DNA from: an uncultured Acidobacteriia bacterium
GTDB taxonomy: Bacteria; Acidobacteriota; Terriglobia; Bryobacterales; Bryobacteraceae
Length of the DNA stretch: 57,591 nt
Direction: 5' to 3'
Assembly: GCA_903882645.1 (NCBI GenBank)
Contig: CAIRXZ010000018.1
Location: 1 to 57,591, forward strand
Numbering within the stretch: position 1 is the stretch's first letter; each line of letters begins with the position of its first letter. The notes under the pieces are model-generated. The model was not told the DNA's origin. It ran no database searches and was given only the letters and a program-made list of their open reading frames with translations. The translations under genes were made by a program, and so were the position numbers. Below, piece after piece: positions 3,218-50,848 of this stretch.

Positions 3218-4121
3218 CTTCAAGTCGGGGTTCATTTCGATCATCGGGCGGCCAAACGCCGGAAAATCCACCCTGCTGAACGCGCTGGTCGGCCGGAAGC
3301 TGGCCATCGTCGCGGATAAGCCCCAGACCACCCGCACCACCATCCAGGGCGTGCTCACCTCGCCCGAGGCGCAGATCGTATTCCTCGATACGCCGGGCAT
3401 CCACAAGGCCGATTCGCCCCTGAACAAGCGCCTGATGAACGCCGTCCGCGCGGCCTTGGACCAGCGCGATCTGTTGCTCTTCGTGGCCGACGCCGCGCAC
3501 GGATTCGAGGAGCAGGATCGCCGCGCCCTCGATCTGCTGCGCAAGGCCGCCACGCCCGCCGTACTGGTCTTGAACAAGATCGACCTGCTGCGGGAAAAGG
3601 GCCTCCTGCTGCCCCTCATCGAAAGCTACAAGGCGGTCTATGAATTCGTCGAATGCGTCCCCGTCTCGGCCGTGAAGGGCGACGGTCTGGACGCGCTGCG
3701 CGGGGTGATCCTGGACCGCCTGCCCGAGGGGCCGGCCTACTTCCCCGACGATTACGTTACCGACCAGCCCGAGCGCTTTCTGGCCGCCGAGTTGGTCCGC
3801 GAGAAGGTCGTGCTGGCCACCCGCAAGGAAGTGCCGCACTCCGTCTCCGTGACCGTGGACCGCTGGGAGGAGGCCCCCAACATCACTCGCATCTACGCCA
3901 CCATCCGCGTGGAGCGTGAAGGCCAGAAGCCCATCGTCATCGGCGCGAACGGCTCGATGCTCAAGAAAATCGGGACCCTGGCGCGCAAGGAAATGGAAAA
4001 ACTGTTCAGCGTCCGGATCTACCTCGACCTGCACGTTCGGGTGCAGCCGGGTTGGCGCTCGAAGCCGGCCTTCCTTGACGCCCTCGACTGGCGTACAATG
4101 GCCGGTGAAGATGATACGTAA
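3207..4121 (+). CDS. era: GTPase Era
   Basis: Era is a membrane-associated GTPase that binds 16S rRNA and assists 30S assembly. The 304 aa protein has G1 GRPNAGKS (about 15-22), G3 DTPG, G4 NKID and G5 SAVKGD. The C-terminal KH domain carries IGANGSMLKKIG. Length and motif order are standard. The start at 3207 overlaps the previous gene, and the stop overlaps the BON-domain gene by 11 bp, so the run from ybeZ onwards is probably one transcript. Confidence 0.96.
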   Translation: MSHSFKSGFISIIGRPNAGKSTLLNALVGRKLAIVADKPQTTRTTIQGVLTSPEAQIVFLDTPGIHKADSPLNKRLMNAVRAALDQRDLLLFVADAAHGFEEQDRRALDLLRKAATPAVLVLNKIDLLREKGLLLPLIESYKAVYEFVECVPVSAVKGDGLDALRGVILDRLPEGPAYFPDDYVTDQPERFLAAELVREKVVLATRKEVPHSVSVTVDRWEEAPNITRIYATIRVEREGQKPIVIGANGSMLKKIGTLARKEMEKLFSVRIYLDLHVRVQPGWRSKPAFLDALDWRTMAGEDDT

Positions 4122-26049: not shown

Positions 26050-26442
26050 TCACACCACTACACGAAGGCCGAGGTGCTGGGCGAACGGATCGAAGTCCCT
26101 GTCGTTGTGCAGCAGGTCGAACCCGCTCTCGATGCACCTGGTGGCGATCACCGTGTCGATGGTCTTGCGAACGGTTACGCCGAGGTTGCGCAGCGCCCGG
26201 AAGTTTCTCGCCGCTTGAATCGCGATTTCCCGTCCGCCCAACTCTACGACCGTCAACGCAGCCAGCATTTTCCTGGCTTGGTTGAAGTCGCGTTCGTCCG
26301 CGAAGCCTTGCAGGACCTCAGTCAGAATCAGGTCGCCGATGGCCAAAGGTTCGTGGCCAAGCAGACTATCGAGTTTCTCGGTCTGCGCGGTGATCGTTCC
26401 CTTGAAGTAATCGATCCACACACTGGAATCGACAAGAATCAA
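26050..26442 (-). CDS. vapC: VapC-type PIN-domain toxin
   Basis: PIN-domain ribonuclease of 130 aa. It has the first acidic site in LVDSSVWIDYF (Asp5), a middle Glu in LTEVLQGF, a conserved Asp in TIDTVIA and the terminal cluster HNDRDFDPFA. The start is TTG 26442, which overlaps the antitoxin stop as TTGA. VapC toxins cleave tRNA or rRNA. It is paired with the upstream VapB and sits in the small toxin-antitoxin islet between GH95 and lacI. Confidence 0.9.
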   Translation of the reverse strand: MILVDSSVWIDYFKGTITAQTEKLDSLLGHEPLAIGDLILTEVLQGFADERDFNQARKMLAALTVVELGGREIAIQAARNFRALRNLGVTVRKTIDTVIATRCIESGFDLLHNDRDFDPFAQHLGLRVVV

Positions 26443-26633
26443 CCGTCGCTCCTCATCGCGTTGAGATCGCCCTGCCAGTCCAGTTTGCCGCGGAGCCGGC
26501 GGATCTTCGCCTGTCTCCTTAGGCGTAGCAAGGTCCGCAGAGCCTGGTCGACGGCCGCACGCTTGGTCTTCAGGCCGGTTGCGCGAAGCGCGTCCCGCAT
26601 CAGTTTGTCGTCAATCACGATGTTCGTCCGCAT
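26439..26633 (-). CDS. vapB: VapB-type antitoxin
   Basis: Antitoxin of about 64 aa with a ribbon-helix-helix-like N-terminus (MRTNIVIDDKLM), the helix KTKRAAVDQALRTLL and a C-terminal toxin-binding tail, LRGKLDWQGDLNAMR. ATG 26633 is the best start; a longer in-frame version exists but adds non-family residues. Overlaps vapC by 4 bp. Confidence 0.88.
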   Translation of the reverse strand: MRTNIVIDDKLMRDALRATGLKTKRAAVDQALRTLLRLRRQAKIRRLRGKLDWQGDLNAMRSDG

Positions 26634-26672: not shown

Positions 26673-27695
26673 TCACGCCGCGGCATTCCTCCGCGTCGAA
26701 GCGCGCGCCACCAGCTTGGGTTGCAGGATGATGCTCTTGGGGCGGGTCGATCCCTTCGCGCCAATCAGGCTCAGGGCCAGCTTTCCGGCGCGTTCTCCCA
26801 TCACGGTGCAACGCTGATCGATGCTGGATAGCGGGACCCGCAAGGAGGCGCCGTAGCGCACGTTGCCGCAACCGATTATCGCGATGTCTTCGGGAATGCG
26901 GAGGCCGGCCTCCAGGATGGCATTCATGGCTCCCACGGCGGTTGGGTCGTTGTAGCAGAAGACGCCGTCGGGCGGCGGGTCAACGCGCAGCAGTCTCTGC
27001 ATCGCCGCCCTGCCGCGCGCTTCGGACTCATCGTCCCCGGCCACTGCCTCCGGAACGTAGTGGACCGGCGCCCTCAGATCGCGGCGCGCCAGGGCCCGCC
27101 TGTAACCGGCGAGCCTTCCCAAACCGGTGCTCACTTCCGGCCCGCGGATGTGAGCGATCCGCCGGTAGCCGGCCGCGATGAGGTGACCGGTGGCCAGTTC
27201 GCCGACCAGTTCGTCATCCACGCCCACGAAGTTCGCCACAAGCCCCGCGAACCGGCGGTCGACGAGTATGTAGGGCGTTTTCTGCTCTTCGATCAGGCGA
27301 AAGCTGGCAACCGTCCATTGCGCCGACGCGATGACCATGGCGTCCAGCCGCCGCGCCAGCAGCCGGGAAATCTCCTGCGCCTCCAAGTCGGGATCCTCCT
27401 CGGAAGAGGCGATGATCAGGCTGTATCCCGACTTACGTAAGATCGAGGAGAGGCCCTTGGCTACTTCGGCGAAGAAAGGATGCACGAGGTCCGGAACCAC
27501 AAGCCCCACCGTGTAAGTCCGCCCGGTCACCAGGGCGCGGGCAGTCAGATTGGGCTGGTAGTTGAGCTCCCTGACGCGCTTGAGCACGCGCTGGCGGGTT
27601 TCGTCGCCGATGTCGCTGTGGTTACGCAGGACCTTCGATACCGTGACAACGGAAACCCCGAGATCCCGCGCGATGTCCTTCATGCGGACTGGCAT
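26673..27695 (-). CDS. LacI-family transcriptional regulator
   Basis: Sugar-responsive regulator of 340 aa. The N-terminal HTH (about 4-50) contains MKDIARDLGVSVVTVSKVL, and LTARALVTGRT is the hinge. The periplasmic-binding-like core contains VGLVVPDLVHPFFAEVAKG. A strong ribosome site, GGAGG, lies 8 bp upstream of the start. It sits downstream of the GH27-GH43-CE1 operon, separated by a palindromic repeat, so it is the obvious regulator of the two divergent sugar operons. Two operator-like sequences with central CG lie at 31881-31894 and 32046-32059. Confidence 0.94.
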   Translation of the reverse strand: MPVRMKDIARDLGVSVVTVSKVLRNHSDIGDETRQRVLKRVRELNYQPNLTARALVTGRTYTVGLVVPDLVHPFFAEVAKGLSSILRKSGYSLIIASSEEDPDLEAQEISRLLARRLDAMVIASAQWTVASFRLIEEQKTPYILVDRRFAGLVANFVGVDDELVGELATGHLIAAGYRRIAHIRGPEVSTGLGRLAGYRRALARRDLRAPVHYVPEAVAGDDESEARGRAAMQRLLRVDPPPDGVFCYNDPTAVGAMNAILEAGLRIPEDIAIIGCGNVRYGASLRVPLSSIDQRCTVMGERAGKLALSLIGAKGSTRPKSIILQPKLVARASTRRNAAA

Positions 27696-27742: not shown

Positions 27743-27846
27743 CCAGTGGGGCGGACCTCCTGGTCTGCCTTCTTTCCGCGGCCGCGGCGGTTCTCGACAG
27801 CGCCGCCGGGAAGCAGAAGGGCAGACGGGGAGGTCCGCCCCACTGG
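27743..27846. repeat. Palindromic repeat (GGGGCGGACCTCC family)
   Basis: Two perfect 18-bp inverted arms, 27743-27760 (CCAGTGGGGCGGACCTCC) and 27829-27846, bracket a partly self-complementary core with TCTGCCTTCT-like words on both sides. The element fills almost the whole gap between the esterase and lacI genes. A single-arm copy lies at 18998. As RNA it would fold into a long hairpin between the two genes. Confidence 0.8.
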
Positions 27847-27851
27847 CAATC

Positions 27852-30183
<2,332 letters not shown>

Positions 30184-30200: not shown

Positions 30201-31829
30201 TCAAAATCCGCCGCGTCCAGCCGCGATGGAGACCCTGAGGAGGACGACCCCGTGCGCCGGAACCGTGGCGGCGTAGTCGTCGCCGGCGACGGAAATCGCC
30301 TCGTGTTTCCAGAGGTCGCGCGCCTGCAATCTGCGGAAACCATAAAGCCCCGTGTCGAATTTCAGGGCGTCCCACCGGAAGCCGATCTCGGCCGGCTTGT
30401 CTCCGCGGTTGAACAGCCCGACCGCGAAGGCGTTGCCGCCGAGGGGCCGCACCAGCACCTCGGATTTTCCCGCCACCGAGAGCCGCTGCACCGGTTTCGC
30501 GTCCCGGTCCTGGTCGATGGCGATCGCGTCGGGATTCATGAGGATGGATTTCGTCTCCTCCGTCATGGTTCGCAGATCGTTGCCCGCCATCAGCGGCGCT
30601 GACAACAGACACCAGAGGCTCATGTGCGTCCGGTACTCGTCGGCTGCCATCCCGCCGTTGCCGACTTCGAGCATGTCCGGGTCGTTCCAGTGCCCCGGCC
30701 GGTTGTACGGGGCGATATCGATGTTGGCGAACCCGATGCGCTCCATGGAATCCCATCGATCGGCGATATCGCCCGTGGTGCGCCAGAGATTGCCGCCCGT
30801 CTTGGCTCCCCACTTCCACACGTCGTGCGAGCCGTACTGGCAGAGACTGTAGACGATGGGGCGTCCGGCCTTCAGCAGGGCTTCGCCCATTTTCTGATAG
30901 GCGCCCCGATTGTCCTCGGTGGTGTTTGAATAGACGCCGCCGGCGCTGCACCAGTCGTACTTCAGGTAGTCGCAGCCCCACTCGGCGAAGGTGATGGCAT
31001 CTTCCTCCTCGTGCCCGAAGCTGCCCTGGTATCCGCCTCCCATTTTTCCGCTGCAGGATTGGGGCCCGGGCGAAGAGTAGATCCCGATTTTCAGGCCCTT
31101 GGAATGGACATAATCGGCCAGCGCCTTCATGTTGGGGAACTTGCCGTTCCCAACGATTTTGCCGCTGGCGTCGCGCCCGCTCGTCCAGCCCTCGTCCACG
31201 ACGATGTAGGTGTAACCGGCCTTGGCCATGCCGCTCGACACCATGGCATCGGCCATCCCACGGACCGTGGCGTCGTCGAACACGTCCTGGAACTTGTTCC
31301 AACTGTTCCAGCCCATGGGAGGCGTGCGGACCAAGCCGTTGTCCGGCACGTCCCGCAGATCGGGGGGCGGAATCCGGGTGGGATAGGCCTCTTCGCGCGT
31401 CACCCGCTCGAACGTTCCCTTCAACGGATCGCGGCCTGTGGCTTGCATGGTGACGGCAATCCGGTTGGCGTTATCCACTACGCCGTCATAGACCGTCTGA
31501 GGCGGCTGTCCGGAAGCTGCGCCCCGGCCCGCGCCCGCCGCCGGAGGTTGGGCGGGCATGCTGAACGTCGCGGCAAGATGCAGCTTGCCGTCTTTCAGCG
31601 TTCCGGTGAGCGTTCCTCCGCGGCCCCCCCGGCCAGCGGGCGCCACGCTTGCGACGGCATCGCCCGTCTGCTGGAACTGGAAGAAGTTCACGCCGCCGTC
31701 CTTGACGCGGAAGGCCCAATAGCCGGTCATGTCGGTCTGCGCCCAGAGGACCAGCGCGCCCAGGGACGCCAGAAGGGCCGCCAGGCACAAGATTCTCCAG
31801 GGGCGGGAATGAAAAACTGAGGGTTTCAT
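30201..31829 (-). CDS. Glycoside hydrolase family 27 alpha-galactosidase
   Basis: Exported enzyme of about 542 aa. A membrane-type leader (about 10-30) precedes a small N-terminal beta domain (about 31-165) with GRGGRGG and GAGRGAASG inserts. Next comes the GH27 barrel, starting TPPMGWNSWNKF. The nucleophile Asp is in DYLKYDWC and the acid/base Asp in HWNDPDMLEVGN. The C-terminal beta domain ends AAGRGGF. It releases alpha-linked galactose, or arabinopyranose in some members. The start at 31829 has AAGAGGAGAG upstream. It is the first gene of the minus-strand operon, 52 bp from a LacI-type operator candidate. Confidence 0.93.
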   Translation of the reverse strand: MKPSVFHSRPWRILCLAALLASLGALVLWAQTDMTGYWAFRVKDGGVNFFQFQQTGDAVASVAPAGRGGRGGTLTGTLKDGKLHLAATFSMPAQPPAAGAGRGAASGQPPQTVYDGVVDNANRIAVTMQATGRDPLKGTFERVTREEAYPTRIPPPDLRDVPDNGLVRTPPMGWNSWNKFQDVFDDATVRGMADAMVSSGMAKAGYTYIVVDEGWTSGRDASGKIVGNGKFPNMKALADYVHSKGLKIGIYSSPGPQSCSGKMGGGYQGSFGHEEEDAITFAEWGCDYLKYDWCSAGGVYSNTTEDNRGAYQKMGEALLKAGRPIVYSLCQYGSHDVWKWGAKTGGNLWRTTGDIADRWDSMERIGFANIDIAPYNRPGHWNDPDMLEVGNGGMAADEYRTHMSLWCLLSAPLMAGNDLRTMTEETKSILMNPDAIAIDQDRDAKPVQRLSVAGKSEVLVRPLGGNAFAVGLFNRGDKPAEIGFRWDALKFDTGLYGFRRLQARDLWKHEAISVAGDDYAATVPAHGVVLLRVSIAAGRGGF

Positions 31830-31880
31830 ACGTCTGACTCTCCTCTTGGACTCCCGAAACGAGCGGGGCTTCCTCTCGCA

Positions 31881-31894
31881 GTTAACGTTAAAGT
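31881..31894. promoter_or_regulatory. Candidate LacI-family operator 1
   Basis: GTTAACGTTAAAGT contains the perfect palindrome TTAACGTTAA with the central CG usual for LacI-family sites. It lies upstream of GH27 on the minus strand. A 12/14 match occurs at 32046-32059, in front of the divergent GH35 gene. Confidence 0.55.
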
Positions 31895-32045
31895 GAACAC
31901 CTATCCTATGGCCACTCGGAATCCGCGTCAAGGGCGCGCGAACTCCATCGGAATCAAACGATTGAAAACATTGAGCAAATTCACTCTGGGAGGGGCGTGC
32001 GATAGCCCCTTGCGAGAGTCGCGCTCGTGCGCCGGCCTGCAAATA

Positions 32046-32059
32046 GTTATCGTAAAAGT
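32046..32059. promoter_or_regulatory. Candidate LacI-family operator 2
   Basis: GTTATCGTAAAAGT differs from operator 1 at only two positions, and the two changes (A to T and T to A) are symmetric about the CG. It lies just upstream of a TACAAT -10 candidate (32073-32078), where bound repressor would block the -35 region of GH35. Confidence 0.5.
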
Positions 32060-32072
32060 TCGCGCATTCCGC

Positions 32073-32078
32073 TACAAT
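32073..32078 (+). promoter_or_regulatory. Candidate -10 box for GH35 operon
   Basis: TACAAT lies 43 bp before the GH35 ATG. The -35 region is weak and would overlap operator candidate 2, as expected for a regulated promoter. The rest of 31830-32121 has no gene. It also has a CG-centred near-palindrome TCAAACGATTGA at 31954-31965. Confidence 0.4.
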
Positions 32079-32121
32079 GTCACTCTTCGCCGATTGAAAC
32101 CGGCGCAAGGAGACTGGAATC

Positions 32122-33966
32122 GTGAAAACTTGTTGCTTCATCGCCGCCGCTTGCTTTGCGGCGGTGGTTTTGGCGCCCTGTTACGGCCAGACAACCACGG
32201 GCATCCCCCACCTTCGGAAACAAGGCTCCGCGACGCAGTTGATCGTGGATGGCAGGCCGTTCCTGGCGGTGACGGGAGAGTTGGGGAACAACTCCGCTTC
32301 GAGCCTGGAGAACATGCAGGCGATATGGCCGAAGCTCGTATCGGGTAATCTGAATTGCGTGCTGGCCGCCGTATCGTGGGCCCAACTGGAGCCCGTGGAG
32401 GGCAATTATAAGTTCGCCCTTGTGGACGGCCTCATCGAGCAGGCCCGGAAGAACAATCTGAAGCTGGTCTTTCTGTGGTTCGCCAGTTGGAAGAACGGCC
32501 TCTCGAGCTACGTTCCCTACTGGGTCAAGGCGGACTTCAAGCGCTTCCCGCGCATTCAGATCAAGGGAGGCAAGAGCATCGAACTGGTCAGCACGTTTGG
32601 CGACGCCACGCGCGATGCCGACGCCCGCGCTTTCGGGGCGCTGATGCGCCACATCAAGTTGGTCGACGGCCTGCAGCACACCGTCCTGATGATCCAGGTG
32701 GAGAATGAGGTGGGCGTGTTGCGAGACTCGCGAGACCGCTCGCCCGCCGCCAACCAGGCCTTTGCGGCCCCCGTGCCGAAGGAGCTTATGGACTACCTTC
32801 AGAAGCACAAGGACACGCTGGCTCCCGAGCTTCGCGACCTGTGGGCCGAGAACGGCTCCAAGACGTCCGGCGCGTGGGAAGAGGTGTTCGGTCCCGGCAA
32901 GCCCGACAGCGTGGACATGCCGATCCAGACCAATAGTCCGCCGATGAGCCGGGAGGAGCACGACACCGCCTGGCGGAAACTGCGCTGGCCGGTGGATGAG
33001 ATTTTCATGGCGTGGAACTACGCGCGCTACCTCGACAAAGTGGTGGCGGAGGGCAAAGCCGGGTATCCGATTCCCATGTACGTGAACGCCTGGCTGCAGC
33101 AGCCGAACATGGCGTGGCCTGGAACCTACCCGAGCGGCGGGCCGCTGCCGCAGGTTCACGACATCTGGCGCGCGGGGGCGCCGAACATCGATGTGCTCGC
33201 GCCCGATCTGTACCTGGAGTATTTCGACGAGGTATGCGAAAGGTTCACCCGCAACGGAAACCCGCTGTTCATCCCCGAAACGTCATCGAACCCGGTCAAC
33301 GCCATCAATGCGTTCGTCAAGTTCAACGCCATAGGGTACTCGCCGTTCTACATTGAACGGGGCGTGGGGCCGGACACGAATCTTGCTGCCGCGTACCGCC
33401 TGATTACGAGCATGGCGCCCGCCATTACGGCGCAGCAGGGCAAGAACAGGATGGCAGCGGTGCGCATCAATCGAGGCGACCCGCCGCTGAAGGTCAGCCT
33501 CGGCGAGTACACGCTCAACCTGACGGGCATGGGCGCGGGCCGGATCCCGATCGCTCCGGAGCCTGCTGCCGCTGCGCAGCCGGGCGGCCAGCCGGGTCTG
33601 CAAGCCCAGGGGGCGCCGCAAGGCGGCCGAGGCCAGGCGGGCCAGCAGCCGGCTCAGGCACAGCCGCAGGGCGGACGCGGCCAGGCAGGCCAGCAGCCGG
33701 CCGCCGGCCTGGACGTCGCCATCTTCATTGCCGCCGGCCCGAACGAGTTTTACATGAGCGGCAACAACGGCAATATCCGGGTCGCCTTCACGCCGAACAC
33801 GCCCGGCCCGCAGACGGTGGGACTCGGGGACGTGCAGGAAGGCAAATTCGTAGATGGCAAGTGGGTGGTTGTCCGCCAACTGGGCGGAGACGACACCGGC
33901 CAGGGCGAACTCCTTACGCTGCGCCCCAACACCCTGATGCGCGTGACGGTGTATCGTTACGAATAG
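32122..33966 (+). CDS. GH35-type beta-galactosidase (DUF5597 group)
   Basis: Exported enzyme of 614 aa. It has a signal peptide (about 1-22), a barrel with LVFLWFASWKNG, the acid/base Glu in MIQVENEVG and the nucleophile Glu in FIPETSS. The C-terminal beta domain is split by a Gly/Gln/Pro-rich insert (33559-33711) that contains a tandem repeat. The group resembles CjBgl35-like enzymes active on galactosyl side chains of xyloglucan. It starts the plus-strand operon of the divergent pair. The ribosome site AAGGAGA precedes the ATG. Confidence 0.9.
   Translation: MKTCCFIAAACFAAVVLAPCYGQTTTGIPHLRKQGSATQLIVDGRPFLAVTGELGNNSASSLENMQAIWPKLVSGNLNCVLAAVSWAQLEPVEGNYKFALVDGLIEQARKNNLKLVFLWFASWKNGLSSYVPYWVKADFKRFPRIQIKGGKSIELVSTFGDATRDADARAFGALMRHIKLVDGLQHTVLMIQVENEVGVLRDSRDRSPAANQAFAAPVPKELMDYLQKHKDTLAPELRDLWAENGSKTSGAWEEVFGPGKPDSVDMPIQTNSPPMSREEHDTAWRKLRWPVDEIFMAWNYARYLDKVVAEGKAGYPIPMYVNAWLQQPNMAWPGTYPSGGPLPQVHDIWRAGAPNIDVLAPDLYLEYFDEVCERFTRNGNPLFIPETSSNPVNAINAFVKFNAIGYSPFYIERGVGPDTNLAAAYRLITSMAPAITAQQGKNRMAAVRINRGDPPLKVSLGEYTLNLTGMGAGRIPIAPEPAAAAQPGGQPGLQAQGAPQGGRGQAGQQPAQAQPQGGRGQAGQQPAAGLDVAIFIAAGPNEFYMSGNNGNIRVAFTPNTPGPQTVGLGDVQEGKFVDGKWVVVRQLGGDDTGQGELLTLRPNTLMRVTVYRYE
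33619..33702 (+). repeat. In-gene tandem repeat in GH35
   Basis: Two units coding QGGRGQAGQQPA (33619-33654 and 33667-33702) are separated by the four-residue spacer QAQP. Bases agree well between units but not perfectly, so the expansion is not brand new. It forms a low-complexity loop before the last beta domain. Confidence 0.85.
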
Positions 33967-34066: not shown

Positions 34067-35629
34067 ATGATAACCAGACGAAATGCCCTCGCATTGCTGG
34101 CGGGAGGCGTTCCCGCATTGAACCTTGCCCGCGCGGCCGGCGAACTGCCCCAAATTGCGGCCGGCCCCTTCAAGGGCACGCGCGAGTCGCTTAAGGATTA
34201 CCGCGTCCCCGACTGGTTTCGCGACGCCAAGCTCGGCCTCTGGGCCCATTGGGGACCTCAGTCGGCGGCCGAGTACGGCGATTGGTACGCCCGCAACATG
34301 TACATACAGGGCCAGCGGCAATACGACTATCACGTCAAGACCTATGGTCACCCGTCGAAGGTCGGCTTCAAGGATGTTATCGCTACCTGGAAGGCTGATA
34401 AGTTCGATCCAGACCATCTCATGCAACTTTATAAGAAGGCCGGCGCGAAGTACTTTTGCAGCATGGGCGTGCACCACGACGGCTTCGACCTGTGGAACTC
34501 GAAGTATCAGCCACGCTGGAACGCGGTGGCCTCGGGACCGAAGAAGGACGTGGTCGGACTTTTCCGGAAGGCGGCGTTGAAGCAGGGGCTGAAGTTCGCG
34601 GTCAGCGAGCACCTGTCGAACAGCTATAACTGGTTCGCCACCTCTCACATGAGCGATAAGACAGGACCGTTGGCCGGCGTGCCGTACGACGGGATGGACT
34701 CCGCATACGCGGATCTCTACCACGACCTGCCGAAGGATTATCCGTACGCAAACGTTTCCAGGACCGCCATGAGCCGCACTGCGCCAGACTCCTGGAAGCA
34801 GCTCTACTTCAACCGGATCAAACAGTTGGTGGACGACTACCAGCCCGACCTGCTCTACACAGACGGCGGGATTCCCTTCGAGGAATACGGACTTGGACTG
34901 GTAGCGCATCTTTATAACACCAGCGCGAAACGGCACGGTGGAATCCCAGAGGCCATTTATACCAGCAAGACGCCGCAGGATTGCCAGGCAGGGACCTGCG
35001 TCCTGGACCTGGAGCGCGGCGTCGCCTCGGGAATTCCGGCCGACCCGTGGCAAACCGATACATGCATCGGCGACTGGCACTATAACCAGGAAGCCCGGAG
35101 CAGGTATAAGACTCCCAAGAGAGTCATCGACATGCTGGTCGATATCGTAAGCCGCAACGGCAACTTGATGCTGAACTTCCCCTTGCCGAACAGCGGCGCG
35201 CTGGACGCGGAGGAGCTGAAGATCCTGGACGAGATCACCAGGTGGATGGCGGTCAACAGCGAGGGCATCTACGGGACCCGGCCGTGGAAGATTTACGGCG
35301 ATGGTCCGGTGGCGTCCGCTCCTGTTGCAGCGGGGCGCGGCGGCGGCTTCAACGAGCAAACTCGCAAGGACTTTACCGCCGAGGAGATGCGCTTCACGAC
35401 GAAGGGCAGCGTCTTGTACGCCTTCGCGATGGGTTGGCCGGATAAGCAGGCCGTGATAAAGCCCCTGGCAACCAATAGCAGCGTGGCGCAGTTCAAGGTG
35501 AGGAATGTCGAACTGCTGGGCTTCAAGGGCAAGGTGAAGTGGACCCAGGATGAGAAGGGCCTGACGGTGCAGATGCCGGAGCAGAAGCCCTGCGATCACG
35601 CGATCGCGCTGAAGGTAGCCGGCGCCTAG
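34067..35629 (+). CDS. Glycoside hydrolase family 29 alpha-L-fucosidase
   Basis: Exported retaining fucosidase of 520 aa. A Tat-like leader ITRRNALALLAGG is followed by the GH29 barrel, with GLWAHWGPQSAAEYGDWY, MGVHHDGFDLW and the nucleophile Asp in LLYTDGGIPF. The C-terminal beta domain carries a short VAAGRGGGF insert. Length is normal. The start at 34067 has GGGAG 7 bp upstream. It releases fucose from oligosaccharides, complementing GH95 nearby; second gene of the plus operon, 100 bp after GH35. Confidence 0.93.
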   Translation: MITRRNALALLAGGVPALNLARAAGELPQIAAGPFKGTRESLKDYRVPDWFRDAKLGLWAHWGPQSAAEYGDWYARNMYIQGQRQYDYHVKTYGHPSKVGFKDVIATWKADKFDPDHLMQLYKKAGAKYFCSMGVHHDGFDLWNSKYQPRWNAVASGPKKDVVGLFRKAALKQGLKFAVSEHLSNSYNWFATSHMSDKTGPLAGVPYDGMDSAYADLYHDLPKDYPYANVSRTAMSRTAPDSWKQLYFNRIKQLVDDYQPDLLYTDGGIPFEEYGLGLVAHLYNTSAKRHGGIPEAIYTSKTPQDCQAGTCVLDLERGVASGIPADPWQTDTCIGDWHYNQEARSRYKTPKRVIDMLVDIVSRNGNLMLNFPLPNSGALDAEELKILDEITRWMAVNSEGIYGTRPWKIYGDGPVASAPVAAGRGGGFNEQTRKDFTAEEMRFTTKGSVLYAFAMGWPDKQAVIKPLATNSSVAQFKVRNVELLGFKGKVKWTQDEKGLTVQMPEQKPCDHAIALKVAGA

Positions 35630-35667
35630 TGCAGTGCGGCGTTCAGATTGACAAATATCCGACGCCC

Positions 35668-35775
35668 GTGGAGTGGGCCTCCAGGCCTGCAATGCCGGCT
35701 TTCCGGCCGGCATGTCTTGAAGAGACGTCGGCAAGGACGCCGACGTGGCAAGCTGAAAGCTCACTCCACGGTTGC
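35668..35775. repeat. Palindromic repeat (GTGGAGTGGGCCTCC family)
   Basis: The element starts CGTGGAGTGGGCCTCC and ends CTCACTCCACGG. Inner hairpins include GCCGGCTTTCCGGCCGGC. The outer ends match, inverted, those of the element at 39601-39713, so both belong to one family. The rest of the 266-bp gap before the oxidoreductase (35776-35883) has no gene. Confidence 0.7.
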
Positions 35776-35895
35776 GTCCGAGCGAGCGGTCGCGACTGGA
35801 TAATGCGCGTTATTGGCGCCGCAGACCACTGGTCTCCGGGACGGAAGGCCGGGTTCAATGTTCGCCCCAAGTTCGATCGGGCGAGGAGGTTAACG

Positions 35896-37329
35896 ATGCA
35901 ACGCCGGGAGTTTCTGAAGACATCCACGGGCGCGGGAATCGCGGCATGGACAGCCGCGTCGGCCGCCCAAGTGCGGGGAGCCAACGACAGGTTGCGCATT
36001 GGTTTGATCGGATGCGGAGGCCGCGGCACGCTCGATGCGCGCAACATGCGCGGCACGCTGGAGGACATCCAGGCTGTGGCGCCCGGGAACTATCACGGCG
36101 GCAATCTGGATCCGCGGCTGAAAGAGCCGCGCAACGTGGAAATCGCCGCGGTGTGCGACGCCAACACGGCCAAAACCGGCGCGGCGAAGCGATGGGCGCC
36201 GCAAGCCACGGCGTACGACGATTTCCGCAAACTGCTGGCGGACCAGAGCATCGACGCGGTGATCATAGCCACGCCGGACCCCTGGCACGCGCAGATGATG
36301 ATCCTGGCGTGCGAGGCGGGCAAGGACGTTTACCTGGAAAAGCCCGTGATGTACCGCCTGGCCGAGGCCACGGCCATGCGCGAGGCGGTGCGCCGGACCA
36401 GGCGCATTGTGCAGATTGGCTCGCAACACCGCTCCGCGGACCACATCGCGGAGGCCGCCCGGATGGTGCAAAGCGGCAAGATCGGCGATGTGAAATTCGT
36501 CCGCGTGTGGAACTACCAGATCGAGCCCGCCGGCCCGCCGGTTCCCGACAGCGAGCCCCCGGCCGGCCTGAACTGGGACGCATGGCTGGGACCGTCGCCC
36601 AAAGTGCCCTTCAACACCAGCCGGCTCTATTACCGGGCTTTTATGGACTATACCAACGGGCTTATCAGCGACTACGGGAACCACCGCTTCGATTCGGTAC
36701 ACCAGATCATGGGCGTCGATAAGCCGCTGAAAGTCTCCTCCGCGACGGCCATGCTCAACCGGCGGAAGGCCGGTAACATCGTCGACTTCCAGCAGGCTAC
36801 CTACGAGTATCCGGGTTTCATCCTGGGTTACGAGGGGTCGGTATACAACAGCCACGGCCTGGGCGGCCGAACGGAGGGCATGCGCTATTACAACGCGCGG
36901 GGGACGGACGACCGCCCGCACGGCATGGCCTTCTACGGAACCGAGGCGGCCCTTTTTGTGGACCGCATCGGGATGGAGCTGTACCCGGAGAGTAGGGGCG
37001 GAGGCCGTGGCGGGATGGGCCGCGGTGGACCGGCGCCGGCGGCCGCGGCGGCGCCGCCGGTCGAGCGGATGCACATGAACGAGGACGAGCCCTCGGCGCT
37101 GCACGCCAAGTATTTCGTCGACTTCGTACGCAGCCGCAAGGAGCCCTTCGCCAACATCGAAACGGAAGTACGCGCCACGGCCGTCGCATGCATGGGCAAC
37201 GTGGCCGCCTGGACCGGGCGCAAGCTGACGTGGGACGACGCCTCCTGGCAGTTCCCCGGCGACGCGGAGGCCAACAAGTACCTGTTCCGCGAGTATCGTA
37301 AGCCCTGGGACCTCGTGAAGTTCGCGTAG
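35896..37329 (+). CDS. Gfo/Idh/MocA-family oxidoreductase with Tat leader
   Basis: Predicted exported NAD(P)-dependent dehydrogenase of about 477 aa. A strong Tat motif RREFLK (about 3-8) is followed by the Rossmann fold with IGLIGCGGRG. Then come the EKP-type motif YLEKPVM and a C-terminal alpha/beta domain with DYGNHRFDSVHQIMG. A Gly/Arg-rich insert, RGGGRGGMGRGG, followed by an Ala run, lies near residues 367-390. Members oxidise or isomerise sugars and related polyols; many acidobacterial ones are periplasmic. The start at 35896 has a perfect AGGAGGT. Third gene of the sugar operon. Confidence 0.9.
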   Translation: MQRREFLKTSTGAGIAAWTAASAAQVRGANDRLRIGLIGCGGRGTLDARNMRGTLEDIQAVAPGNYHGGNLDPRLKEPRNVEIAAVCDANTAKTGAAKRWAPQATAYDDFRKLLADQSIDAVIIATPDPWHAQMMILACEAGKDVYLEKPVMYRLAEATAMREAVRRTRRIVQIGSQHRSADHIAEAARMVQSGKIGDVKFVRVWNYQIEPAGPPVPDSEPPAGLNWDAWLGPSPKVPFNTSRLYYRAFMDYTNGLISDYGNHRFDSVHQIMGVDKPLKVSSATAMLNRRKAGNIVDFQQATYEYPGFILGYEGSVYNSHGLGGRTEGMRYYNARGTDDRPHGMAFYGTEAALFVDRIGMELYPESRGGGRGGMGRGGPAPAAAAAPPVERMHMNEDEPSALHAKYFVDFVRSRKEPFANIETEVRATAVACMGNVAAWTGRKLTWDDASWQFPGDAEANKYLFREYRKPWDLVKFA

Positions 37330-37397
37330 AGTGACTCGATCCCGGCGAAGCAGCCCCGATGCCGGCCAGCCGATAACGACAGCGCCCTGAGGCGCCA

Positions 37398-38450
37398 ATG
37401 CCAGACCTGAGCCCTAGTTACGACGACTCCGCGGCCGGTTGCGGGGAACCAGTCGACCCAACCCTGGTCCCCAAAAGGAAGCTGTATACCGGCGCGCTTA
37501 TGCCGGCGATCGGCTTAGGGACCTTTGGTTCCGATCATGCGCCGCCCGAGGAAGTAGCGGCGGCTGTGAAGGGCGCAATCCTGGCGGGTTACCGTCACCT
37601 GGATTGCGCCTCGGTGTACGGCAACGAGGATCGCATCGGCGCCGCGCTGGAGGAGGTCTTCCATCGGGGAATCCGCCGCGAGGAGCTTTGGGTGACTTCC
37701 AAGCTCTGGAACGACAAGCACGGGGAAGACGAAGTAATCGCTTCCTGCAAAAAGTCACTGGCGGACTTACGGCTGGATTACTTGGATATGTACCTGGTCC
37801 ACTGGCCGTTTCCGAATTTCCATCCGCCGGGGTGCAGCGTGGATTCGCGCAGTCCCGGCGCCAGACCCTACATCCACGAAAACTTCATGAAGACATGGCG
37901 GCGTATGGAGCGGCTGGTGGAGTTGGGACTCGTACGGCACATCGGGACGTCGAACATGACGATTCCGAAACTGAACTTACTCCTCCGGGACGCTTCGATC
38001 AAGCCGGCGGTCAATGAGATGGAGTTGCACCCGCACTTTCAACAGCCGGAGCTGTTCGATTTCGTGCGCGGCAATGGGATCGAACCCATCGGCTATTGCC
38101 CCGTCGGTTCGCCGGGACGGCCGCAAAGGGACCGCACTCCCTACGACACCGTGGACATCGCGGACCCGGTCATTGTGGAGATCGCCCGAAGGCTGGGCGT
38201 ACACCCGGCGGCGGTTTGCGTGAAATGGGCCGTCCAGCGCGGTCAAACCCCGATTCCCTTCTCTACCAAGCCCCGGAACTATGTGGCGAACCTGCGGTGC
38301 GCCGTCACCGAACCGCTTGCCGAGCCGGATATGCGGGCGATCGCTCGAATCGACAGGAATTGCAGGCTCATCAAGGGACAGGTATTCCTGTGGAAAGACA
38401 ACCAGAGTTGGGAAGACCTTTGGGATATTGATGGAGAAATCAGGACATGA
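37398..38450 (+). CDS. Aldo-keto reductase
   Basis: NADPH-dependent reductase of 350 aa, cytosolic (no leader). It has GLGTFG, the catalytic tetrad in LDCASVYGNE (Asp, Tyr), TSKLWN (Lys) and LVHWPFP (His), and the cofactor segment in PIPFSTKPRN. It overlaps the alcohol dehydrogenase gene as ATGA. In this context it may reduce or oxidise released sugars such as fucose or galactose; the substrate is not shown. The N-terminal ~25 residues are longer than usual. Confidence 0.92.
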   Translation: MPDLSPSYDDSAAGCGEPVDPTLVPKRKLYTGALMPAIGLGTFGSDHAPPEEVAAAVKGAILAGYRHLDCASVYGNEDRIGAALEEVFHRGIRREELWVTSKLWNDKHGEDEVIASCKKSLADLRLDYLDMYLVHWPFPNFHPPGCSVDSRSPGARPYIHENFMKTWRRMERLVELGLVRHIGTSNMTIPKLNLLLRDASIKPAVNEMELHPHFQQPELFDFVRGNGIEPIGYCPVGSPGRPQRDRTPYDTVDIADPVIVEIARRLGVHPAAVCVKWAVQRGQTPIPFSTKPRNYVANLRCAVTEPLAEPDMRAIARIDRNCRLIKGQVFLWKDNQSWEDLWDIDGEIRT

Positions 38451-39508
38451 TGAAAGGCGCCTATTTACCGGGTAACAGCACCGTCGAGATGCGTGATATT
38501 CCCGTCCCCGAGCCGGGTCACGGCGAGGCGCTGCTGCGCATGAAATCGTCGACCATCTGCGGCTCCGATATCAGGTGCATTTACCACGAGCACCTGGGCA
38601 AGGGACCGGAAGGCTACCAGGGCGTGGTGGCGGGGCATGAACCTTCCGGCCGGATCGTGAAGACCGGGCCGGGCTGCCGCCGTTTCGGCGTTGGCGACCG
38701 CGTGATCGTTTACCATATCTCCGGTTGCGGGGTCTGCAACGATTGCCGGCGCGGCTATATGATCTCCTGCACCAGCGAGAAATACCGGCGCGCTTACGGA
38801 TGGCAGCGCGACGGCGGCATGGCGGACTACCTGCTGGCCGAGGAAAAGGACCTGATCCACCTCCCCGACGAGCTGACTTACACGGACGGCGCACAGGTTG
38901 CCTGCGGTTTCGGTACGGTGTACGAAGGTTTGCAGAAGATCGGCGTCAGCGGCAGCGACGCCGTCCTGATTACCGGTCTCGGCCCCGTGGGGCTGGCCGC
39001 CGGCGCGCTCTGCCGGAAACTCGGCGCCAGAAAAATCATCGGCATCGACGTGGTGGAAGAGCGAATCAAGCTCGCGCTGGATCTGGACGTCTGCGACGAA
39101 GCGCTGCGTAGCGGGCCCGACAACGTGTCCGAGGTCCGGAAACTGACATGCGGGTACGGCGTGGAACGCGCCGTCGATTGCTCCGCCAGCGAAACCGCGC
39201 GCGCCACCGCCATACGGGCCACGCGCAAGTGGGGCCGCATCGTGATGCTCGGCGAGGGCGGCCGGGTCGAGTTCAATCCCTCCCCGGATATCATCCACGA
39301 CCAGAAGACCATCCACGGGTCGTGGGTGACTTCGACGTGGCTGATGGAGGAACTCGTGGAACGGCTGGTCTGTTGGAACCTGCACCCCGCGGATTTGGTA
39401 ACGCACCGTTTCCCGCTCGAGAGCGTGGGAGACGCGTACGCCGTAATGGCCGCCGGGAAGTGCGGAAAGGTCGCCGTCTGCTTCGATGAGGAACTGACGG
39501 CGGGCTGA
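38447..39508 (+). CDS. Zinc-dependent alcohol/polyol dehydrogenase
   Basis: Medium-chain dehydrogenase of 353 aa. The catalytic zinc residues are in STICGSDI and VVAGHEPSG. The structural zinc cysteines are in CGVCNDCRRGYMISC (C-x2-C-x2-C-x7-C). The NAD-binding GLGPVGLAAGAL follows at about 180. It resembles sorbitol, L-fuconate or threonine-type dehydrogenases; specificity unknown. Translation is coupled to the aldo-keto reductase by a 4 bp overlap. Last gene of the plus-strand sugar operon. Confidence 0.92.
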   Translation: MMKGAYLPGNSTVEMRDIPVPEPGHGEALLRMKSSTICGSDIRCIYHEHLGKGPEGYQGVVAGHEPSGRIVKTGPGCRRFGVGDRVIVYHISGCGVCNDCRRGYMISCTSEKYRRAYGWQRDGGMADYLLAEEKDLIHLPDELTYTDGAQVACGFGTVYEGLQKIGVSGSDAVLITGLGPVGLAAGALCRKLGARKIIGIDVVEERIKLALDLDVCDEALRSGPDNVSEVRKLTCGYGVERAVDCSASETARATAIRATRKWGRIVMLGEGGRVEFNPSPDIIHDQKTIHGSWVTSTWLMEELVERLVCWNLHPADLVTHRFPLESVGDAYAVMAAGKCGKVAVCFDEELTAG

Positions 39509-49534: not shown

Positions 49535-50848
49535 ATGCGAAGAATCGTTTCAGTAGTTCCGGCGGTGATACTGGCGGCCGCCGCGGCGGCGCAGAGCGGC
49601 GGCGAATTGCCGAAGCGTTTCGTCATCTCCGATTTCGGGGCCGTGGCGGACGCCAAGACGGTCAATACGGCAGCCATTCAGGCAACCATCGACAAGTGCG
49701 CGGCCTCGGGTGGCGGCGTTGTCGTCGTGCCGAAAGGAACCTTCCTGAGCGGGGCGATCTTTCTGAAGCAGGGCGTGAATCTCTACGTCGAGAAAGACGG
49801 CGTTCTCAAAGGGACCACCAACATCGACGATTACCCGATGATCCAAACCCGATGGGAAGGAACCGAAGAGCCATGGACCTCCGCGTTCGTCAATGCGGAA
49901 GGCTTGACGGACCTCGATATCTCGGGAGAGGGAACCATCGACGGATCCGGTGAAGAGTGGCTGCGGAACAGTCCGCCCAGGGCCGCCGCCGGCGGCAGGG
50001 GGGACGCCGCCGCAGGGGAAAATCGGGCCGCTCCGGCGCCGCCATCGCCGCCGAGGCGCGGGCGGCCGCGTCTGATCGGCATCCAGAATTCCAAACGCGT
50101 GCGCGTGGCCGGCCTGAATCTGCACAATCAGGCCGTGTGGTGCCTGTTCTTTCTATATAGCGAAGACGTCCTGGCGGAGAACCTGAGGATCACCGCCGAG
50201 CACAACATACCGAGCTCGGACGGCATCGATATCGATTCCTCCAAACGCGTGCGCGTCGACAACGTGTACATCGATGTCGACGACGATTGCATCTCGATCA
50301 AGTCGGGAAAGGACGCCGACGGTCTGCGGGTCAACCGGCCCGCCGAGGACATCGTCATCGAGAATTCCCACTTCGCCTATGGACATGGAGGCGTCGCGAT
50401 GGGCAGCGAGACATCCGGCGGCATCCGCAACGTCGAGGTCAGGAACTGCGTCGCCGATTCCGGCAACTGGGCTCCCATTCGGTTCAAGACCCAGCCCAGC
50501 CGCGGCGGCGTGGTCGAAAACATCGCGTATCGGGACATCGCGCTGCACGCAACCAGGCAGGCCTTTGAATTCAATCTCGAATGGCGCATGGTTCCGCCCA
50601 TCGCGCCGCCCGCGAAGGTGCTCCCGGTTGTCCGCAATGTCAAAATCGTCAACGTGTCCGGCGACGTGGATTCGGTCGGCGTCATTCACGGTCTGACGGA
50701 CAGCCCGATTCGAGACATTCACTTTGAGAACTGCCGGATCTCGGCGCAAAAGGGTTTCAGGCTGGACCATGCGCGAAACGTGGATCTTTCCGGTCTGAAA
50801 CTGGACGTGAAAGACGGCGAGCCGATCACAAAAACGGATGTGCAATAG
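49535..50848 (+). CDS. Glycoside hydrolase family 28 (polygalacturonase-like)
   Basis: Exported pectin hydrolase of about 437 aa. It has a signal peptide (about 1-20), an N-terminal FGAVADAKTVNTAAIQ, and a beta-helix with SSDGIDIDSS, DDDCISIKSG, YGHGGVAMGSE and IRFKT, covering the four GH28 motif blocks. A Gly/Arg/Ala/Pro insert near residues 148-180 carries AGGRGDAAAG. ATG 49535 has GAGG 7 bp upstream. Confidence 0.92.
   Translation: MRRIVSVVPAVILAAAAAAQSGGELPKRFVISDFGAVADAKTVNTAAIQATIDKCAASGGGVVVVPKGTFLSGAIFLKQGVNLYVEKDGVLKGTTNIDDYPMIQTRWEGTEEPWTSAFVNAEGLTDLDISGEGTIDGSGEEWLRNSPPRAAAGGRGDAAAGENRAAPAPPSPPRRGRPRLIGIQNSKRVRVAGLNLHNQAVWCLFFLYSEDVLAENLRITAEHNIPSSDGIDIDSSKRVRVDNVYIDVDDDCISIKSGKDADGLRVNRPAEDIVIENSHFAYGHGGVAMGSETSGGIRNVEVRNCVADSGNWAPIRFKTQPSRGGVVENIAYRDIALHATRQAFEFNLEWRMVPPIAPPAKVLPVVRNVKIVNVSGDVDSVGVIHGLTDSPIRDIHFENCRISAQKGFRLDHARNVDLSGLKLDVKDGEPITKTDVQ

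Follow-up and report, generated by a model that had tools for sequence, protein, structure and literature searches.

In the window, by which we mean the whole 57,591-nt stretch of DNA analysed here, a GH27 alpha-galactosidase gene and a GH35 beta-galactosidase gene are transcribed away from one another across a divergent gap of 292 bp that extends from the GH27 start (31829, minus strand) to the GH35 start (32122, plus strand). An earlier note on this DNA had picked out two similar sequences in the gap, and the question that the locus raises is whether these are operators and, if so, for which protein. We consider it very probable, from the comparisons described below, that they are the operators of the LacI protein encoded at 26673-27695, which would then act as a local repressor of a fucoside-utilisation island. 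For this reading the presence of the sites, their motif match, their conservation and their position were computed, and binding, repression, the transcript starts and the effector are what we infer.

Gene content on either side of the divergent gap

The regulator and the genes of the two divergent units are the following.

26673-27695, minus strand: LacI-family regulator, 340 aa, proposed binder of both sites (PF00356 (LacI) 59.1 bits, PF13377 (Peripla_BP_3) 110.3 bits)
27743-27846, no strand assigned: inverted repeat between the esterase gene and lacI (27-nt arms, 93% complementary)
27852-29057, minus strand: CE1-like esterase (Pfam Esterase 81.5 bits)
29077-30183, minus strand: GH43-like protein, weak match (PF04616 E 0.0047, 16.7 bits against a cut-off of 32.2)
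30201-31829, minus strand: GH27 alpha-galactosidase, first gene of the minus-strand unit (Pfam Melibiase_2 206.9 bits)
32122-33966, plus strand: GH35 beta-galactosidase, first gene of the plus-strand unit (NCBIfam NF051902 619.1 bits, cut-off 500)
34067-35629, plus strand: GH29 alpha-L-fucosidase (Pfam Alpha_L_fucos 290.9 bits)
35629-39508, plus strand: GFO/IDH oxidoreductase, aldo-keto reductase and zinc dehydrogenase genes (Pfam)

The minus-strand unit is thus read in the order GH27, weak GH43-like gene, CE1-like esterase gene and then lacI. Of the GH27-GH43-CE1 labels previously given to it, GH27 and the CE1-like esterase are upheld by Pfam and the GH43 label is weak, with PF04616 below its cut-off; the solved-structure matches of the GH43-like protein, to beta-fructosidase, are also weak (E 0.005). 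The earlier note had put lacI at the far end of this first operon, and lacI is indeed last, after the esterase gene, with its membership in the operon uncertain. An inverted repeat lies in the 156 bp that separate lacI from the esterase gene, and it belongs to a family spread over the genome (18 nt of one arm are found at 132 genome places at up to 2 mismatches, against 1 in the reversed control), so that co-transcription of lacI with GH27 is not assured. The inverted repeat is REP-like. Directly downstream of lacI, at 26050-26630 of the window, there is a type II toxin-antitoxin pair made up of a VapB antitoxin-like gene and a PIN-domain gene.

The regulator carries an N-terminal LacI helix-turn-helix and a sugar-binding periplasmic-type domain, both over cut-off, and passes as a LacI-family protein by this test; it is, as had been claimed, the single LacI gene that Pfam detects in the window. 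In its own genome (5.27 Mb, 366 contigs) two LacI genes exceed the Pfam cut-off, and one weak partial match falls short of it. A LacI match is present in 181 of 200 family genomes, the best besides the protein itself (79%) being in G037, a genome of the same genus.

Two CG-centred sites in the gap

The two sites and the promoter elements near them are listed here, the sites being called from motif rank and from conservation in G037.

31879-31894, plus strand: site 1, predicted operator facing GH27, 16-mer CAGTTAACGTTAAAGT; its 14-mer GTTAACGTTAAAGT occupies 31881-31894
31903-31931, minus strand: predicted GH27 promoter TTGACG-17-TAGGAT (the only promoter match in 31830-32140; shuffle mean 0.2)
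32044-32059, plus strand: site 2, weaker predicted operator at the GH35 -35 position, 16-mer TAGTTATCGTAAAAGT; its 14-mer GTTATCGTAAAAGT occupies 32046-32059
32073-32078, plus strand: proposed GH35 -10 hexamer TACAAT (found by eye, absent from the promoter scan)

Both 14-mers were found where the earlier note had placed them, on the same strand and identical at 12/14 positions, and the central CG that it described is present in each. Its statement that the two differences are symmetric about that centre does not hold, because the CG centre falls between positions 6 and 7 and the differences are at positions 5 and 9 of 14, 1.5 and 2.5 bases away from it. Around its CG, site 1 forms a perfect palindrome of 10 bp; in the 16-mer of site 2, 3/8 symmetric positions pair around the central CG. 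The site centres are located about 57 bp before the GH27 start codon and about 70 bp before that of GH35, within the 30-140 bp range typical of LacI-family operators.

The classic operator pattern WAANCGNTTW was tried and rejected, with 2 window matches, both elsewhere, against 1.0 expected, as were counts of exact CG-centred 10-bp palindromes in lacI loci, which were uninformative.

An operator motif learned from lacI orthologues

We derived an operator motif from the regulator side by an expectation-maximisation search of the DNA upstream of lacI orthologues, with the two sites withheld and with the window and G037 excluded. The first training used 36 of 40 upstream regions (the window, L056, L092 and L093 were omitted), reduced to 27 cluster representatives after de-duplication. 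The best palindromic motif from the 36 upstream regions was CG-centred, and the motif from the 27 representatives, nMKKWAWCGWTWMMKn, scores 55.1 compared with at most 39.4 in 12 shuffled sets. Over the 57,576 positions of the window this first motif scores site 1 at 18.0 bits, the top rank, and site 2 at 13.9 bits, the third, rank 2 being at 49539; site 2 violates one of its nearly invariant positions. The gap is A+T-richer, and among 1,000 column-permuted motifs 45 likewise match best within it, 3 of them reaching the second rank as well. Runs for a non-palindromic motif were near noise after de-duplication (73.6, where 6 shuffled sets gave up to 69.5), and the first such motif put site 1 at rank 5 in the window and did not return site 2 among its best ten.

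A held-out set was then obtained from 80 lacI loci taken from genome contigs, of which 46 were kept and 34 dropped for overlap with the first training loci. With the best 15 matches per locus retained, 48 matches in the 46 loci score at least 13 bits, whereas 60 permuted motifs give 13.5 on average and never more than 29. By gene calls made with a simple script rather than a gene finder, 34 of these 48 are intergenic (the gap share being 10.5%); for the top 48 of the permuted motifs the average is 10.5 and the highest count 23. An earlier scan had given 37 of 52 matches as intergenic with training loci included, and the two window sites were missing from its intergenic list; the held-out count is the clean one, because the 37/52 figure includes training loci and because the upstream extension of the GH27 frame covers the window sites. 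A second motif, nMKTWAnCGnTWAMKn, learned from the held-out 46 upstream regions alone (39 clusters), ranks site 1 first (19.7 bits) and site 2 second (17.1) in the window, and ranks the G037 sites 1 and 2 within their locus.

A further motif match lies inside the GH43-like gene at 30077-30092 (12.1 bits and rank 6 with the first motif, 16.5 bits and rank 3 with the second), and could be an auxiliary operator or chance.

Upstream of lacI itself no motif was found in the window (2.1 bits) or in G037 (3.5 bits). Genome-wide consensus searches for a wider regulon performed no better than reversed controls. Since the consensus MKTWANCGNTWAMK occurs at 7 places in the window's own genome and its reversed control at the same number, there is no sign of a wide regulon there, and the regulator looks local. 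In the same genome, overlapping intergenic matches of 14.1 and 11.5 bits (G000:C239:1974; L156 1973-1994), in a count not above background, precede a gene that has a sub-threshold Melibiase_C match and stands in one run with an enolase-superfamily gene; we treat this place as no more than a candidate target. Elsewhere in this genome (G000:C307, L154 617-2438) there is a CRISPR-associated Cas2 gene together with a Cas4 gene whose frame also takes in the beginning of a Cas1 domain.

Conservation at GH35 promoters of relatives

In G037 the sequences GTAACCGTTAAAGT and GTAATCGTAAAAGC are found upstream of the GH35 orthologue. Each core is identical to its window counterpart at 12/14 positions and the flanks at 7 to 13 of 30, which makes the sites conserved islands, and site 2 keeps the same distance from a TANNNT hexamer. 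The two sites are 165 bp apart in the window compared with 69 bp in G037, where the gene divergent from GH35 is of the epimerase family and not GH27. When the two promoters were aligned globally, site 1 was placed and the second half was not, so the comparison was anchored at each site.

The site is absent in 14 of 14 other GH35-orthologue promoters (window and G037 excluded), none of which scores above 7.8 bits, some of their gene starts being extrapolated from alignments; the GH35 promoter of L138 was unscored because the gene start is off the contig. No lacI was seen in those other GH35 loci. The earlier note's expectation that the site would recur before orthologous genes in related genomes is therefore borne out in G037 and upstream of lacI orthologues, and not at any of these 14 promoters. 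Two of the genomes without the GH35-promoter site, G155 and G144, carry LacI orthologues of 72% and 71% elsewhere in the genome, and in G123 (same genus, about 81% complete) no LacI match exceeds 64%. As G037 and the window have both the sites and a close, linked lacI, and G155, G144 and G123 are without, the sites appear to accompany such a lacI, a pattern seen in two genomes alone.

G123 retains the GH35-GH29-GFO run and GCTACAAT upstream of its GH35 orthologue, with a best motif score of 0.4 bits in the 350 bp upstream, and since GCTACAAT is kept there without such a site the GH35 promoter does not need site 2. This bears on an alternative in which site 1 alone works as an operator and site 2 is a conserved GH35 promoter element that resembles the motif. 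The few pairing positions of site 2, its lower score in the first motif and its fixed distance from the -10 hexamer in the window and G037 would all fit such an element; against that, site 2 is ranked second by the held-out motif and the G123 promoter is independent of it, and we regard the alternative as unlikely.

Predicted promoters and a proposed mechanism

On the preferred reading, in which both sites are operators of the window LacI, their positions can be set against the predicted promoters. The GH27 promoter predicts a transcript start near 31896 on the minus strand, so that site 1, just downstream of this promoter, would be centred near +10, and TACAAT predicts a GH35 start near 32085 on the plus strand, so that site 2 would be near -33. 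The placement given previously, with site 1 facing GH27 and site 2 covering the GH35 -35 position, agrees with this. With these predicted starts, both would be classical places for a repressor.

In the mechanism that we propose, a LacI dimer bound to site 1 in the absence of inducer would keep the predicted GH27 transcript from being initiated; at site 2, the weaker of the two, a dimer would cover the GH35 -35 position and prevent polymerase from binding. A substrate-derived sugar, most likely L-fucose or a derivative, would free both sites, and their release would turn on the two divergent units jointly. The idea of one LacI-type regulator over both units, put forward in the earlier note, is favoured by the motif from orthologue upstream regions, which picks both sites, and by the conservation of both in G037.

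The two predicted operators might in addition have to be joined by a DNA loop for repression, which is compatible with the main reading and was scored separately; the earlier note had suggested looping at a set helical spacing. Paired motif matches do recur in divergent promoters of relatives, but their spacing is not conserved, at 83, 116, 128 or 144 bp in other promoters besides the 165 and 69 bp given above, and the window LacI is without the E. coli-type tetramer tail, having 9 residues beyond the aligned core where E. coli LacI has 34. Because of the varying spacing and the missing tail looping is unsupported, though a loop might form by other means, and we judge a required loop to be quite unlikely.

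The assignment to the window LacI could also be wrong if another regulator with a similar motif binds the sites, and the genome does have a second full LacI gene. We hold this to be very unlikely, since the motif was derived from the upstream regions of orthologues of the window LacI, whose DNA-binding segments its own closely resembles, and the second LacI has a different helix-turn-helix sequence.

The mutual likeness of the two sites is by itself weak evidence, because 61 of 400 dinucleotide-shuffled versions of the gap contain a 12/14 pair in either orientation and because near-copies are no commoner in the genome than background (31 places within two mismatches, counting the two sites, where the reversed pattern has 37). 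When 5,000 shuffles of the gap were scored with the lacI-orthologue motif, none reached both scores, one came up to the score of site 1 and 39 to the score of site 2, and it is the comparative evidence that raises the two predicted sites above chance. A chance resemblance, for all that shuffling yields equally similar pairs, is extremely improbable in view of these 0/5,000 shuffles, the two separately learned motifs and the conservation in G037.

Motif targets in relatives and the candidate effector

The genes that adjoin motif matches in relatives are GH29 genes (L060, L062 and L086), a run of aldo-keto reductase, dehydrogenase, GH29 and lacI (L088), another aldo-keto reductase (L196), fucose pyrophosphorylase genes (L065 and L072), a GHMP kinase divergent from lacI (L207) and a protein with sub-threshold fucose-isomerase matches (L087). 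Matches are also found with GDP-mannose-dehydratase-like epimerases (L056, L057 and L059), outer-membrane barrels (L073, L079 and L088) and MFS transporters (L085 and L216), and next to lacI itself in many loci. Non-fucose neighbours comprise elongation factor G, myo-inositol oxygenase, a cytidylyltransferase, an aminotransferase, a sulfatase, a GH2 enzyme and a TPR protein. Since fucosidase, fucose pyrophosphorylase and lacI genes are among those that follow the motif in relatives, the likeliest candidate for the effector is L-fucose or one of its derivatives.

A further fucose-pyrophosphorylase gene of G037 has a near copy of the GH35 promoter including its site 2, the site scoring 6.1 bits. 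This gene (G037:C499, L160 about 3640-3660) stands beside a short LacI remnant of 35 residues, 69% identical, and promoter copy and remnant together suggest a promoter duplication.

More broadly, and with a little less than even confidence, we propose that the regulator may be one of a widespread group of Acidobacteriota LacI proteins, so far undescribed, whose common ACTTWANCGNTWAAGT-type operator governs L-fucose release and metabolism; in this genus it would recently have taken over the GH27/GH35 island. The targets of such a group would be GH29, fucose pyrophosphorylase, GHMP kinase, aldo-keto reductase and outer-membrane barrel genes, and the GH27/GH35 island would be reached through one strong operator and one conserved asymmetric operator.

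Discussion

The lac system of E. coli has a LacI-family repressor whose main operator lies just downstream of the transcript start and whose operators are imperfectly symmetric, as the sites are here. The window system differs from it in having two divergent promoters, no tetramer tail and another recognition helix and motif.

According to the main text of a study of LacI-family factors (PMC4052901), which has no mention of Acidobacteria or fucose, 1173 of 1303 factors have CG-centred even palindromes and more than 75% of sites are at 30-140 bp before the start codon. With the local regulons that this text describes from comparative genomics the window system shares the CG-centred even palindrome, the site distance of 30-140 bp, the placement of the regulator near its targets and the occurrence of more than one site in divergent promoters (PMC4052901). 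The factors described there are mostly autoregulated (72%), whereas the window lacI is without an upstream site of its own.

Literature searches on LacI regulons of Acidobacteriota turned up no paper on such a regulon. The kind of system is known, and its mechanism as such is textbook, and the motif and the fucose link look undescribed for Acidobacteriota in the literature searched. Gene control in these bacteria, which are abundant and hard to grow, seems little charted, and the regulator, its motif and the fucose-centred targets together give a testable account of how they may sense fucosylated glycans.
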